Shown in pieces: positions 6,956-64,000 of a DNA stretch of 64,000 bases. The translations under genes and the position numbers were made by a program. The stretch is from assembly GCA_025808555.1 (NCBI GenBank), contig CP075526.1, forward strand, positions 124,001-188,000, given 5' to 3'. The notes beneath the pieces were generated by a model that was not told the DNA's origin, did no database searches, and saw nothing but the letters and a program-made list of their open reading frames with translations. Numbering within the stretch: the stretch's first letter is position 1; the number at the start of each line of letters is the position of its first letter. This DNA comes from Anaerolineales bacterium (lineage in GTDB: Bacteria > Chloroflexota > Anaerolineae > Anaerolineales > UBA11579).

Positions 6956-7195
6956 GAAAAGGTAATTTAGCTACAAGTACGTCTACTCAGCCGTTTGCCC
7001 ACGAGGGCCTTGTCCAACACCTTCATTTTTTGGGGGCACGAGGTCGGCGACTGGGCGGAAAACGTGGGATAACGGCAAAAATTATCCTACCGGCTTGGCG
7101 GACCGGGAGAGCCACACGAGCACAGCTGCAGGTCGCCGCCTGCTGAGCCCAAGGGAGGCCGATAGCTCTGCTTACATGAACAGGGAAACCAAACA
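6956..7195. other. Intergenic stretch, nothing recognised
   Basis: Between the zinc-ribbon promoter and the DinB terminator I see no gene, tRNA or known RNA motif. The only structure noted is a weak stem at 7067-7087 (GGATAA with TTATCC, 9-base loop). Confidence 0.5.
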
Positions 7196-7234
7196 GGCTG
7201 CGGGGCGGGCGCTGCTAACGCTCGCCCCGCAGCC
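7196..7234 (-). terminator. Terminator of the MBL-DinB operon
   Basis: Arms of 16 bases (GGCTGCGGGGCG... pairing with ...CGCCCCGCAGCC, one G-U pair), followed on the minus strand by TGTTTGGTTT. It lies 23 bases after the DinB-family stop. Confidence 0.75.
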
Positions 7235-7257
7235 TGATCAAAACACTAAGCAAAAGC

Positions 7258-7755
7258 TTACGCGGCCTGTTTGCTCATATAGAACAGGGTGTAGTCAATG
7301 TTTCCGGGAGAATAGCCAAATTCAGTCAACATCTGAGCCAGTTCGGCGCGATGCTGCATGCTGTGGAACAGCAGCTGCTTGAGCAGCAACAGGCGCTGGC
7401 GGGTGAACTCTTCGCCGGTGGAGACCTTATAGGTCACGGAACCTTGCAGCTCCTCATCGCTGGCGGCGGCCAGGTACTTGCGCATCTCGGCCTCTTCGGC
7501 CTGCCAGCGCGCCTGTATGGCGGCCAGGTCGGCAAACTGCTCGGGCTTGACTGGTTCGTACGGCTGGCCCATGCAGCGCACGCGGTAGGCATATTCCGCC
7601 GAAAGCGTGTGCACTAGGGTCTCCTTCACGCTCTTGATCGGGAAGCGGGTCTCTTCCTCAAACTGCTCGGGGGTCAGCTTGGCAGCTTGCGCCAGGATCA
7701 GGTCGCGCCCCCAGCAAGTGAAATCGTACATGTCCAACAACAGTTCTTTCAGCAT
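7258..7755 (-). CDS. DinB family protein
   Basis: A 165-residue four-helix-bundle protein of the DinB/YfiT superfamily, which are metal-binding proteins, some of them thiol transferases. The three expected metal-ligand histidines are visible: H49 (KETLVHTLSAEY), H131 and H135 (HSMQHRAEL). The aromatic N-terminal helix MYDFTCWGRD is typical. The ATG at 7755 has an AAGGAG ribosome site, and the upstream MBL-fold gene stops 8 bases earlier, so the two are an operon. The substrate is unknown. Confidence 0.85.
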   Translation of the reverse strand: MLKELLLDMYDFTCWGRDLILAQAAKLTPEQFEEETRFPIKSVKETLVHTLSAEYAYRVRCMGQPYEPVKPEQFADLAAIQARWQAEEAEMRKYLAAASDEELQGSVTYKVSTGEEFTRQRLLLLKQLLFHSMQHRAELAQMLTEFGYSPGNIDYTLFYMSKQAA

Positions 7756-46837: not shown

Positions 46838-47195
46838 GCTTCCAGGTTGGTCGGATGATCGCTGGGAGCTACGCCGCTTTGCGGCGTGGGTTCCTGGAGG
46901 AAAGTCCGCACTCCATAGGGCATGGCGCCGGGGAAACCCCGGGGCGGGGAAACCTGCCGGATTAGGGCCACAGAAATACACCACCGCGCAAGCGGCCAGG
47001 GTGAAATGGTGAGGTAAGAGCTCACCGGCGCGGCAGTAATGTCCGCGGCCAGGCAACCCCCGCCCGGAGCAAGGCCAAACAGAGGTGAGCAGCGGCCCGC
47101 TACGCTTGAGCCTCGGGTAGGCTGCACAGATAGATGATCATCCACGCCCGCTATGCGGGCGGGACAAAATGCGGCTTATAGACCAGCCTGGAAGC
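46838..47195 (+). ncRNA. rnpB: RNase P RNA, bacterial type A
   Basis: The catalytic RNA of RNase P, which trims the 5 prime leader from pre-tRNA. Conserved blocks occur in order: GAGGAAAGTCC at about 46897, CACAGAAATA, AGGGTGAAA, GGTAAGAGC, GAGCAAGGCCAAACAG and AATGCGGCTTATAGACCAG. The P1 arms GCTTCCAGGTTGGTC and GACCAGCCTGGAAGC define the ends. It is transcribed divergently from rpoB and has its own promoter and terminator. Confidence 0.96.
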
Positions 47196-60047: not shown

Positions 60048-60060
60048 TTGTTGTGCACCC

Positions 60061-61371
60061 TTATTCGCTTTTAGGTGCCGGCTGCTCCAACTCGAGGTAA
60101 AGCCGCTCATCGTTGTGGTCATAAGCTAGCAACTCTGCGTATCGCCCCCACTTCACAATAATCCCAATCTGTTTGGCAGCCTCTGGAGCCGAGAATTCAA
60201 GCTCCAATGCGGTTTGCACCACCTTCGCCTGCAGCTTCTGCCCCTCAGCCGCGCCAAGCAAAGCTAAAAGCCATTGAAAAACTGGCAACCGTCGCAAACG
60301 CGAGGCAAAGATCTCCTTCCGCGCCTGAATGCCGGCATCCGCAAAAGTTTCGCCTAAACTGGTCAGGGCAATGTCGCCCTCTGAGATAGTCGCCAAGCTG
60401 AGCAGTTCAGTTGCCTGAACCAGACGTAGTAAGTGATCGGAGTCCAAGCCAAGATCTTCGGCAAGGCGATAGATATCCTCGCGGTCCCCTGGTGCGGCAT
60501 TAAGGTGTTCAAGAAGACCAGCCAAGTCACTGATGCTGATCTCAGGCAAGGCTGGCGTGTGACCCGTTTGCCCGGGGGCAGTACCTAGTTCCATCCATTC
60601 GGGTTGAGTGTGGCCAGCCAAGAGGGCATAAAGCCTATCCACCTCGACCTGGAAGGCAGTAGACTTGCGTTGCCGCGGATGCAGTAGGTCAATGCGCATT
60701 TCCGCCACGATCCGCCCGGGGTTCTTCTCCATTACTAGCACGCGGTCTGCCAGCGCCACGACTTCTTCGATATTGTGACTGACTAACAAGATGGCTTTGG
60801 TAGGCAAATTGCCTTCGAGCCACAACTCCAGCAACTCGCCTCGCAAAGCCTCAGCGCTAAGCACATCCAGGGCGGAGAAGGGCTCATCCAAGCAGAGCAG
60901 CTCGGGCTCGGTGACCAGCGCACGAGCAAAGCCAACCTTCTGCCTCATTCCACCGGATAACTCACGGGGATAAGCACTCTCGAAGCCATCCAGGCCTACT
61001 CGATCGATAGCCTCCAGGGCTAATTGACGCCGCTGATCTGCTGGCCTCCCCTTGGCCTTCAACGGCATCTCGACGTTTTCCTGCACCCGCAACCAGGGAA
61101 ACAGGGCAAAGGTTTGAAACACAATGGTGGCGTGTGGATTCACGCCGTGCAATGGCAAACCTCGATACATAACCTGCCCCCGGCTGGGTTTTTGGAGTCC
61201 CGTGATAATTCGTAACAAGGTGCTCTTTCCACAACCAGAGGGACCCAACAATGCGACGAGCTCACCTTCACGAACATCCATAGCAACATCTTCAATAGCC
61301 GTGAATGAGCGTTCGGCACTTCCATAGATCTGTGAAACGCCACTCAGGCTTGCGAGAATTGGTTTTTCCAT
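60061..61371 (-). CDS. ABC transporter ATPase with AAA-associated C-terminal domain (nitrate/sulfonate type)
   Basis: A 436-residue ATPase for an import-type ABC transporter. Walker A is GPSGCGKST at 43-51, the signature LSGGMRQKV near 142, Walker B LLCLDEPFSALD near 163 and the H-loop SHNI near 198. The NitT/TauT-type cassette ends near residue 260. The remaining 170 residues match the AAA-associated C-terminal domain found on some of these ATPases, which is probably regulatory. Follows the permease gene by 3 bases. No substrate-binding protein is in the window, so the substrate is unknown. Confidence 0.88.
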   Translation of the reverse strand: MEKPILASLSGVSQIYGSAERSFTAIEDVAMDVREGELVALLGPSGCGKSTLLRIITGLQKPSRGQVMYRGLPLHGVNPHATIVFQTFALFPWLRVQENVEMPLKAKGRPADQRRQLALEAIDRVGLDGFESAYPRELSGGMRQKVGFARALVTEPELLCLDEPFSALDVLSAEALRGELLELWLEGNLPTKAILLVSHNIEEVVALADRVLVMEKNPGRIVAEMRIDLLHPRQRKSTAFQVEVDRLYALLAGHTQPEWMELGTAPGQTGHTPALPEISISDLAGLLEHLNAAPGDREDIYRLAEDLGLDSDHLLRLVQATELLSLATISEGDIALTSLGETFADAGIQARKEIFASRLRRLPVFQWLLALLGAAEGQKLQAKVVQTALELEFSAPEAAKQIGIIVKWGRYAELLAYDHNDERLYLELEQPAPKSE

Positions 61372-61374
61372 GGC

Positions 61375-63093
61375 TTACTCCATGCGATAGATTTCTTCGG
61401 AGGCGGTATATAAGCGGCGCCAAAATATACGGTTGATCAGCACCACGGAGACGACCATGGCCATAGTCGCAGCTATCAATTGGGGATAGCGGCCATCCGC
61501 AGTGGCCTGCGCAATGATGGATCCGATTCCAGTTGTGGAGAGCGTCTCACCGCCGAATTCGATGTATTCAGCAACAATACTTGCATTCCATGCTCCGCCG
61601 CTGGCTGTGATTGCCCCAGTGACTAAGTATGGAAACAGCGCAGGCAAGATTAGCGTACGCCAGCGCTCACTACGAGAGAGATTCAAAAGGGTTGCCGTGT
61701 ACCGCAAGTCTTCAGGAATGGCATTGGCGCCCGCGATTACGTTGAAAAGCAGGTACCACTGCGATCCAGTGAGCATGAGCAACACCGCGGCCAGATTCAA
61801 ACCGCCCGGCATACCGATGATAAAGAGAACGAAGACAGGAAAAAGGGCAGTGGAAGGAACGGATGCCATGATTTGCGCCAATGGCTGAAAGAATGCAGAT
61901 AAGCGGCGATTGGTAGCGATGGCCACCCCAACTGGGACCGTCCAGAGCAAAGCAAGAACCAAGGCCACACTAACCCTCAACAGGGTTGCCCCTAGCCCAA
62001 TCAGGATTAACCGCCAATCCTCAAACGGTACTGCAATCAAAGAGGCAGTCATGAAGTACGTCAAAATCGCAAAGAAAACAACCATACCGAACTTTAGCAG
62101 CCGCCATCCCAAAGATTTTCTTACCACCTCTGTCCTTTTGGAAGATTCCTCCGCTCGTCCCTCCATCCAGCGGTCAATGGCATTTTCGGGTCCTGCCAGC
62201 CAAAGGGACTTCAGCCATGCAAACAAGTTTGACCCTCGCATAAACTGTAGAAACCAGGAACGATTCTCTTCTTCTGTTTGGGCCATCCCAAGTTTGAAGC
62301 GGTTGGTCCAATTAAGCAATGGTCGCCACACAAATTGGTCAAGTATCACAATGACTAGCACCAGCGCACCTAAGCCAAAGAGTATCGCAGACAAATCGTT
62401 CTGGTTGGCGGCTTCCTGCAAGTACGCCCCCAGTCCGGCCAAGCGGAAATCTCGCTGCCCAACGGTGAACATTTCGGCAGCCATTAGGAAGAACCAGCCA
62501 CCGGCCCAACTCATTAAGCTGTTCCATGCCAGCGGAATAGCTGCAAAGGGTAGCTCCAGAAAACGGAAACGCAACCAGCTATTGAGGCGGAAAATTGAAC
62601 TGGCTTCTTGCAGTTCCCCCGGAAGGGTTGTAAGGGACTGATACCAGGCAAAGGTCATGTTCCACACCTGGCTGGTAAAGATTAGAACTACCGAAGCCAG
62701 CTCAGCAGCCCAAGCAGTTGGTAGAACTGCGCTCAGACCTAGAAGAACAACCGGCAAGAAAGAAAGGATGGGTACGCTTTGAAGTACGTCTAGCAGCGGC
62801 AGCATGACGCGCTCTGCAACTCGGCTGTTTGCAGCAACTCGGCCATAAATCAAGCTAAACACCAATGATAAGGCGTAGGCAGCGATCATACGCCCGATAG
62901 AAAGAAATGCATACCAGGGAAGTGCCGAGGGCTGCAGGGAAATGGTTGGGCCGCTGACTTCTTCAGGCGCATTAAATGCCAGGCGCAAACCGATGTAAAG
63001 GACGCCTGCCACGCCCGTCAGCACAAGGAGATCTCCCGCGGTAAGGCCACGGCGGCGCGGCCCCTCAACTCGAAAGTAACGGCTGACCCCCAT
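61375..63093 (-). CDS. ABC transporter permease, two fused membrane domains
   Basis: A 572-residue permease made of two BPD-type transmembrane domains in tandem. The first spans about residues 60-280 with EAA loop ELQEASSIFRLNSWLRFRFLE, and the second about 340-560 with DLRYTATLLNLSRSERWRTL. A basic loop joins them. Together with the ATPase this gives a complete membrane core from two genes. The ATG at 63093 follows GGAAGG by 6 bases; it lies just past the uspA stop. Confidence 0.88.
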   Translation of the reverse strand: MGVSRYFRVEGPRRRGLTAGDLLVLTGVAGVLYIGLRLAFNAPEEVSGPTISLQPSALPWYAFLSIGRMIAAYALSLVFSLIYGRVAANSRVAERVMLPLLDVLQSVPILSFLPVVLLGLSAVLPTAWAAELASVVLIFTSQVWNMTFAWYQSLTTLPGELQEASSIFRLNSWLRFRFLELPFAAIPLAWNSLMSWAGGWFFLMAAEMFTVGQRDFRLAGLGAYLQEAANQNDLSAILFGLGALVLVIVILDQFVWRPLLNWTNRFKLGMAQTEEENRSWFLQFMRGSNLFAWLKSLWLAGPENAIDRWMEGRAEESSKRTEVVRKSLGWRLLKFGMVVFFAILTYFMTASLIAVPFEDWRLILIGLGATLLRVSVALVLALLWTVPVGVAIATNRRLSAFFQPLAQIMASVPSTALFPVFVLFIIGMPGGLNLAAVLLMLTGSQWYLLFNVIAGANAIPEDLRYTATLLNLSRSERWRTLILPALFPYLVTGAITASGGAWNASIVAEYIEFGGETLSTTGIGSIIAQATADGRYPQLIAATMAMVVSVVLINRIFWRRLYTASEEIYRME

Positions 63094-63094
63094 G

Positions 63095-63568
63095 TTAACC
63101 TTCCACATGGGGCGCGTCACGGACGACAAGCAAGGGTCGATCTACCTTCTGCAGAATGGCGCTGCACACCGAGCCGTAGAAAACTCGCTTCAGGTTGCTA
63201 CGCCCATGGCTAGCGATCACAATTAGATCGGTGCGCGTAACGCGGGCTTGGTTGATTATCGAATCGACCACGTACCCTTTCACCACACTGGCGCTGACTA
63301 ATACTCGAAGCTGAGAGATTTCATTGGCCTTAGCGCCTAGATATCTTGTAATCTCCTCTTCAGCCTGCTCAATGCGCAAACGATAGAGGCTCCACTCTTC
63401 CATGGTGCGCATCTTCCCCACCTTGGGGATGAACAAATCCGAGGCAAAGTCGATTACATGCAACAGTATGATCTCTGCACTCATGGCCCTGGCCAACGCG
63501 ATGGCATGTTCCAAGGCCAATTCTGCGGTTTCGGAGCCGTCTAGCGGCACAAGAATCTTCTTGTACAT
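63095..63568 (-). CDS. Universal stress protein UspA family
   Basis: A 157-residue nucleotide-binding USP-fold protein. The opening MYKKILVPLDGSETAELALEHA and the ATP-binding loop IVIASHGRSNLKRVFYGSVCSAIL are typical, as is the closing RPLLVVRD. A GAGG site lies 5 bases before the ATG. It is the first gene of an operon with the transporter genes, so it may sense or gate the transporter through ATP. An intrinsic terminator stands only about 21 bases upstream of the start codon. Confidence 0.92.
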   Translation of the reverse strand: MYKKILVPLDGSETAELALEHAIALARAMSAEIILLHVIDFASDLFIPKVGKMRTMEEWSLYRLRIEQAEEEITRYLGAKANEISQLRVLVSASVVKGYVVDSIINQARVTRTDLIVIASHGRSNLKRVFYGSVCSAILQKVDRPLLVVRDAPHVEG

Positions 63569-63589
63569 TTGAACCTCAATCACTGGTTT

Positions 63590-63630
63590 AAAAAAAAAGC
63601 CCCGGCTGCTATGCACTGAGCAACCAGGGC
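63590..63630 (-). terminator. Terminator in the uspA leader (attenuator candidate)
   Basis: On the minus strand, GCCCTGGTTGCT pairs with AGCAGCCGGGGC over 12 positions (two G-U) with an 8-base loop, followed by nine T. It lies between the promoter and the uspA ribosome site. Confidence 0.8.
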
Positions 63631-63651
63631 CAGACTTATACAAATAATCGT

Positions 63652-63720
63652 TTAGCCAAGCGTAAACAGGCCGCGCAAAATGCTGCAAGCTTTCTTAGTA
63701 CTTAATGGATCACAATCCAT
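63652..63720 (-). CDS. Possible 22-codon leader peptide upstream of uspA
   Basis: ATG to TAA, reading MDCDPLSTKKACSILRGLFT plus LG. It sits between the promoter and the terminator, with its stop 22 bases before the terminator stem. The ribosome site is weak. It contains two Cys codons and no run of one amino acid, so a classical amino-acid attenuator is not obvious. Confidence 0.25.
   Translation of the reverse strand: MDCDPLSTKKACSILRGLFTLG
63705..63720. promoter_or_regulatory. Inverted repeat in the uspA leader
   Basis: ATGGAT and ATCCAT separated by CACA, about 40 bases after the predicted transcription start. It may be an operator or part of the leader structure. Confidence 0.35.
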
Positions 63721-63763
63721 GGTTATCACAGCTTCTTTCACAATACCTGACCGTTTCCTGAAC

Positions 63764-63792
63764 AGCTTACTGCACATTAAAAGGCTTGTCAA
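63764..63792 (-). promoter_or_regulatory. uspA-transporter operon promoter
   Basis: TTGACA, 17 bases, TAAGCT on the minus strand, giving a leader of about 190 bases that contains the small open frame and the terminator. Confidence 0.6.
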
Positions 63793-63822
63793 CGTTCAAC
63801 ATCGTAGCTTACGGCTAACAGC

Positions 63823-63828
63823 TATAAT
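63823..63828 (+). promoter_or_regulatory. -10 box of the right-edge gene, leaderless arrangement
   Basis: TATAAT ends 8 bases before the ATG at 63837; no ribosome site and no clear -35. Confidence 0.5.
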
Positions 63829-63836
63829 AATTTCTT

Positions 63837-64000
63837 ATGTTCAACGCAGAAAAAGCCGCCGTCGAAGCGCGCATCGCCGAATATTGCCAAGCCGAAGGCT
63901 TACCCGCGCCCACTCTCACCTGGAGCCAGATCCCCTTCTCCGGCGAATGGGGCATCGCCACCTCGCTCTTCCAACTCGCCTCGCAAGAGGCCAAACAAGG
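63837..64000 (+). CDS. argS: Probable arginyl-tRNA synthetase, N-terminal fragment (runs off the window)
   Basis: Only 54 codons are present. The pattern AEYCQAEGLPAPTLTWSQIP followed by GEWGIATSLFQLASQEAK resembles the N-terminal Add-1 domain of ArgS, where a GDYATNVALQLAK-type motif is usual. No catalytic motif is in view, so the call is tentative. The ATG is preceded by a TATAAT box at 8 bases. Confidence 0.45.
   Translation, partial: MFNAEKAAVEARIAEYCQAEGLPAPTLTWSQIPFSGEWGIATSLFQLASQEAKQ

Follow-up and report, generated by a model that had tools for sequence, protein, structure and literature searches.

Short leader open reading frames (ORFs) with acidic and proline residues are known from enterobacterial Mg2+ transporter genes. 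MgtL is such an ORF of mgtA in Salmonella and E. coli (PMC11282234), and both CorL and MgtL are found upstream of Mg2+ transporters (PMC11552253); translation of the MgtL ORF is impaired at low Mg2+ (PMC11282234, PMC11552253). In Salmonella mgtCBRU, the acidic residues of the short ORF MgtQ shift competing stem-loops and free a Mg2+ transporter gene (PMC8092293). These Mg2+ leader systems use Rho or translational control, not an intrinsic terminator. In the literature searched, we found nothing relevant on leader peptides of Chloroflexi and no function for the PF09821 ABC transporter family. Here we describe the leader of an operon encoding a universal stress protein (USP) and such a transporter in a 64,000-nt stretch of an Anaerolineales genome (contig CP075526.1, positions 124,001 to 188,000; "the window"). 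We read it as a leader-peptide transcription attenuator that was acquired with its operon and has low Mg2+ as its likeliest signal; to this reading as a whole we assign a probability of about 0.5.

The leader is located between the ATG of usp (63568, minus strand) and that of the divergent argS gene (63837, plus strand). On one predicted transcript, the operon is preceded by a short ORF and, behind it, an intrinsic terminator (Table 1). The leader peptide starts with MDCDP and thus has acidic and proline residues near its start, as in MgtL/MgtQ-type ORFs; over its whole length, Asp and Ser occur twice each and Pro once. No Shine-Dalgarno (SD) sequence was evident before the leader ORF.

Table 1. 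Features of the leader, the operon, and the inserted block (window coordinates)
Feature	Position	Strand	Basis and remarks
Promoter-like TTGACA-17-TAAGCT	63764..63792	-	Sequence; 9/12 matches; inside inserted block
TTGACA hexamer	63792-63787	-	Sequence; 17-nt spacer, then TAAGCT at 63769-63764
Leader ORF, 22 codons, MDCDPLSTKKACSILRGLFTLG*	63652..63720	-	Sequence; relatives' type of acidic core present
Inverted repeat ATGGAT-TGTG-ATCCAT, 16 bases, 6-bp arms	63705..63720	-	Sequence; over leader start codon
Putative antiterminator 5' segment	63669..63683	-	Predicted fold; near leader ORF codons 13-18; pairs with 63625-63613
Intrinsic terminator stem-loop, 13 pairs including G-U	63598..63631	-	Predicted fold, shuffles; -23.6 kcal/mol
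Nine-T run	63590..63598	-	Sequence
SD-like GAGG of usp	63574..63577	-	Sequence
Universal stress protein Usp, 157 aa	63095..63568	-	PF00582, 8.1e-30
Fused double ABC permease, NrtB/CmpB-like, 572 aa	61375..63093	-	PF00528; weak match to CmpB and nitrate permease
ABC ATPase with C-terminal PF09821, 436 aa	60061..61371	-	PF00005 and PF09821
Inserted block, about 3.75 kb, approximate ends	~60054..63806		Empty-site comparison with congeners

All elements named in the original prediction (promoter, inverted repeat, 22-codon frame, and strong terminator with nine T before the usp SD) were present. For comparison, the 268 bases of the region were dinucleotide-shuffled. The promoter hexamers were equalled in 360 and the inverted repeat in 352 of 1,000 shuffles. 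While any ATG ORF of 14 to 36 codons arose at the leader position in 52% of shuffles, one with the relatives' type of acidic core was seen in 16 of 3,000 (0.5%). None of 1,000 shuffles yielded a terminator as good. Chance was thus exceeded by the terminator and the ORF content, but not by the promoter hexamers or the inverted repeat. Among the terminator-like hairpins of the window the usp terminator ranked second; the top-ranked one was found at about 7100-7400 on the minus strand.

Comparison with congeners revealed that leader and operon occupy an insertion. The rpsT region was found in 10 of 11 same-genus genomes searched (own genome included), and in all nine congeners holding it argS directly follows rpsT at a distance of 97 to 577 nt, without the operon. 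In alignments to these empty sites, the native rpsT terminator extended up to ~60053 and the native argS promoter started at ~63806. The block in between comprises the leader including TTGACA, usp, permease, and ATPase, and has a G+C content of 51 to 56%, versus 59 to 67% in the genes that flank it on the rpsT side. No permease homologue was detected in the same-genus or same-family genomes searched. Judging from these comparisons, the operon is a horizontal acquisition, and the leader, being part of the inserted block, arrived with it.

The leader had been predicted to control USP together with the ABC transporter. At an E value of 1e-30, no homologue of the window USP was found in 298 genomes of the class, and among 164 distinct upstream regions, collected from 219 transporter loci, USP stood before the permease in no more than L001, L103, and L054/L133 (L054 and L133 apparently represent one locus). 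USP as the conserved target was therefore rejected, because it stands 5' of the transporter in only a few loci. By gene context, the conserved unit is the transporter, with USP outside it, so only the transporter part of the predicted target was retained.

Upstream of related transporters, about 30 loci contained a 15- to 32-codon ORF with an acidic/proline N terminus, mostly in Anaerolineales, but also in Brocadia (L067) and Myxococcota (L095, L097). Their N-terminal cores read DPDH, DSDYH, DPLRT, DDPLPS, DDPH, and similar; examples of complete ORFs are MDGLLSLDPDHSTARTPSQLETLRQV, MKPHSTDPLRTLPTLVRSV, MDEILTDDPLPSKILSRFPSVDA, and, in Thermanaerothrix daxensis (L035, same genome as L007), MDEIVGLDSDYHSCTLLPHDISG. 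An acidic core of fixed definition was present in 22 of the 32 members of the leader set, compared to 3 of 132 other upstream regions and 1.7% of shuffles; because the set was picked partly for acidic cores, the first figure is not independent. Two of the three positive "others" (L172, L185) turned out to be further copies of true leaders. In residues 2 to 13 of the leader peptides, Asp was the most enriched residue (20.1%, versus 3.4% Glu), an enrichment that is partly circular for the same reason. Nonsynonymous change was lower than synonymous change in 14 of 15 leader ORF pairs, some of which overlap; this is an indirect hint at translation of the relatives' ORFs. The leader ORFs of L003, L008, and L010 start ~10 to 20 nt past the -10 box without an SD sequence; these transcripts may be nearly leaderless.

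In most relatives, the last codons of the ORF or the surroundings of its stop codon were complementary to the 5' arm and loop of the terminator. The ORF/terminator duplexes had a mean energy of -19.2 kcal/mol when matched versus -14.7 kcal/mol when mismatched, and the antiterminator energy gain over shuffled upstream sequence had a mean z of -1.94 in 25 leaders. Seven of nine antiterminator pairs (11 leaders) exhibited compensatory changes on both sides; since the 5' segments in this count were chosen for complementarity, the duplex-energy and z tests are the fairer measures. When the window transcript was cut at the terminator loop, the predicted fold (-20.5 kcal/mol in total) paired the putative antiterminator 5' segment with its partner in the terminator. 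The search for an antiterminator pairing was clearly positive in the relatives, whereas the window leader by itself had the expected topology with a gain that was not individually significant (z -1.04, p 0.155). A second helix in the relatives, between the terminator base and the SD sequence of the permease (SD-masking), covaried at four of nine pairs. No terminator was detected in the clade formed by L016, L020, L023, L025, L095, and L097, where control may be translational.

The search for homologous leaders thus found similar leaders before related operons, but no demonstrable homology to that of the window. A covariance model (R1) built from the leaders of 12 relatives, with the window left out, recovered further relatives at E values of 2e-17 to 1e-5, and matched neither the window nor genome G000. 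Likewise, nhmmer detected no DNA homology between the window leader and other leaders. The window permease forms a long branch outside the leader-bearing clades, and the permeases nearest to it are without such leaders. Because of the missing R1 match and the position of the permease, we regard the window leader as analogous to the relatives' leaders in its layout, with common descent unproven. It shares with the PF09821 transporter leaders of Anaerolineales, Brocadia, and Myxococcota its position, the acidic/proline start, and the complementarity between ORF and terminator; the relatives' leaders, however, precede the permease, whereas that of the window precedes usp and escapes their covariance model. 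When R1 was used to look for a regulon, the transporter leader was the single strong site in most genomes searched. Weaker second matches (L317, L318, L319; E 0.004 to 0.005) were noted in G062, G090, and G113. As a finder of leaders, the promoter/ATGGA pattern proved too loose.

As to the signal, the genes adjoining these transporters were informative. mgtE adjoins the transporter in ~20 loci of many lineages (including L054/L133, L095, L097, and L143-L149). The gene order is mgtE-usp-permease in L054/L133; in L095 and L097, an acidic leader and permease-ATPase are followed by an MgtE-like gene (31% identity over 210 to 237 residues). In a Tsukamurella plasmid relative (L324), the end of an MgtC/SapB gene lies 23 nt 5' of the permease, and a Paraburkholderia plasmid relative has genes for a VIT-family and a universal stress protein downstream. 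In family f11, CorA type-2 genes (L246, L247, L249, and L252-L255) are preceded by short acidic/PP ORFs of their own (MFHQDDSQPPSF, MFTNESTSGNTESQPPS, MSSESDRSGAAESQPPS), several of them with ESQPPS or DDSQPPS, and no acidic leader ORF was present at their type-1 paralogues in these genomes. The mgtE genes of G000 have no such leader. The mgtE neighborhood suggests a link between the uncharacterized PF09821 ABC transporter and divalent cations. Because acidic leaders have precedents at Mg2+ transporters, and because of the mgtE, MgtC/SapB, and CorA context, we infer low Mg2+ as the best candidate for the signal, by analogy a leading guess. The sequence kin of the transporter are nitrate/bicarbonate permeases, so that Mg2+ is not established as its substrate. 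Against the Mg2+ reading, general acidic destabilization does not predict a bias of Asp so far above Glu.

From these features we infer that the ORF is translated and that its translation would switch the operon as follows. RNA polymerase would transcribe the acidic 22-codon ORF. A ribosome that reaches the stop codon would cover the 3' end of the ORF, the terminator would form, and the operon would be off. If ribosomes stalled or dropped off at the acidic/proline sequence MDCDP, the 3' end of the ORF would be freed and could pair with the 5' arm of the terminator, allowing transcription into usp-permease-ATPase. The likeliest signal would be a condition under which acidic/proline nascent chains are elongated less well, with low Mg2+ as the best candidate, as for MgtL/MgtQ.

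Several other explanations have to be weighed. The leader could be degenerate, a weak terminator that acts constitutively or a mere 5' untranslated region, which no longer switches and carries an acidic ORF by chance; its failure to match the covariance model, the nonsignificant antiterminator, the chance-level promoter, and the nearest permeases lacking such leaders all fit this, but a terminator unmatched among the shuffles and the rarity of the acidic-core ORF do not, and a terminator just 5' of the first gene is uncommon in loci without a leader. We regard degeneration as unlikely, though deserving serious attention. Less probable still is an attenuator that monitors the aminoacyl-tRNA of Asp, Pro, or Ser, as those of amino acid operons classically do. 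Its ORF/antiterminator/terminator logic would be identical, and Asp is the residue most enriched in the leader peptides; yet single-codon runs are absent from the leader ORFs (L173 has one Asp and L170 none; the window counts are given above), and the neighbors of the transporter loci are cation transporters, not amino acid genes.

Two further readings carry little weight. The original prediction had left the choice between a riboswitch and a peptide-controlled attenuator, and a ligand-binding riboswitch of an undescribed class would agree with a terminator just before the ribosome site of an operon that encodes a transporter. Rfam covariance models, those of Mg2+ leaders included, gave no match to 63500-63900 at gathering or relaxed thresholds, in line with the original remark that the leader matches no familiar class; the sole exception, NsiR1 at E 3, fell far short of its threshold. 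Moreover, what recurred among the relatives was limited to the ORF core, antiterminator, terminator, and SD-masking helix, and no conserved aptamer-like core was seen in their leaders. A riboswitch is accordingly very improbable, whereas the attenuator gained from the recurrence of acidic leader ORFs in ~30 operons, most of them with antiterminator and terminator and with compensatory changes. (The Rfam scan of the window also identified a bacterial RNase P class A RNA at 46843-47194 on the plus strand.) Finally, intergenic terminators commonly end upstream transcripts, and the terminator might do so here without regulating usp. Since argS is transcribed in the opposite direction and the leader is part of the inserted block, no same-strand upstream gene reads in or could own the terminator, and we give this explanation next to no credence.

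More broadly, and with the odds against it, the leader of the window may be a diverged, horizontally acquired example of a family of Mg2+-sensing attenuators in Chloroflexota and some Planctomycetota and Myxococcota. Independently of MgtL, such attenuators would respond to the destabilization of ribosomes on acidic/proline peptides and control an uncharacterized family of ABC transporters (no binding-protein gene in the operon) in divalent-cation homeostasis. If so, a mode of sensing described for enterobacterial Mg2+ genes, ribosome destabilization by the nascent peptide, would reach into distant phyla and also work through intrinsic termination, and there would be a first functional handle on the PF09821 ABC transporters.

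Like MgtL, the window ORF is short, has an acidic/proline N terminus, and sits in a 5' leader ahead of transporter genes; no sequence relation between the two was found. In MgtL, efficient translation keeps the gene off and poor translation turns it on (PMC11282234, PMC11552253), and the same logic is proposed for the window; MgtL, however, acts via a Rho-dependent terminator, whereas the window leader has an intrinsic one. With MgtQ the window leader has in common a short ORF with acidic residues and, as proposed, competing stem-loops. MgtQ exerts translational control from an intergenic site, whereas the window ORF belongs to a 5' leader and precedes an intrinsic terminator; in many relatives of the window transporter, an SD-masking helix occurs beside the intrinsic terminator. 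In trp-type amino acid attenuators, an antiterminator and an intrinsic terminator compete, and the end of the ORF reaches into one side of the former, as proposed here, but the window ORF is without a run of a single regulatory codon, and the genes are not those of amino acid synthesis.
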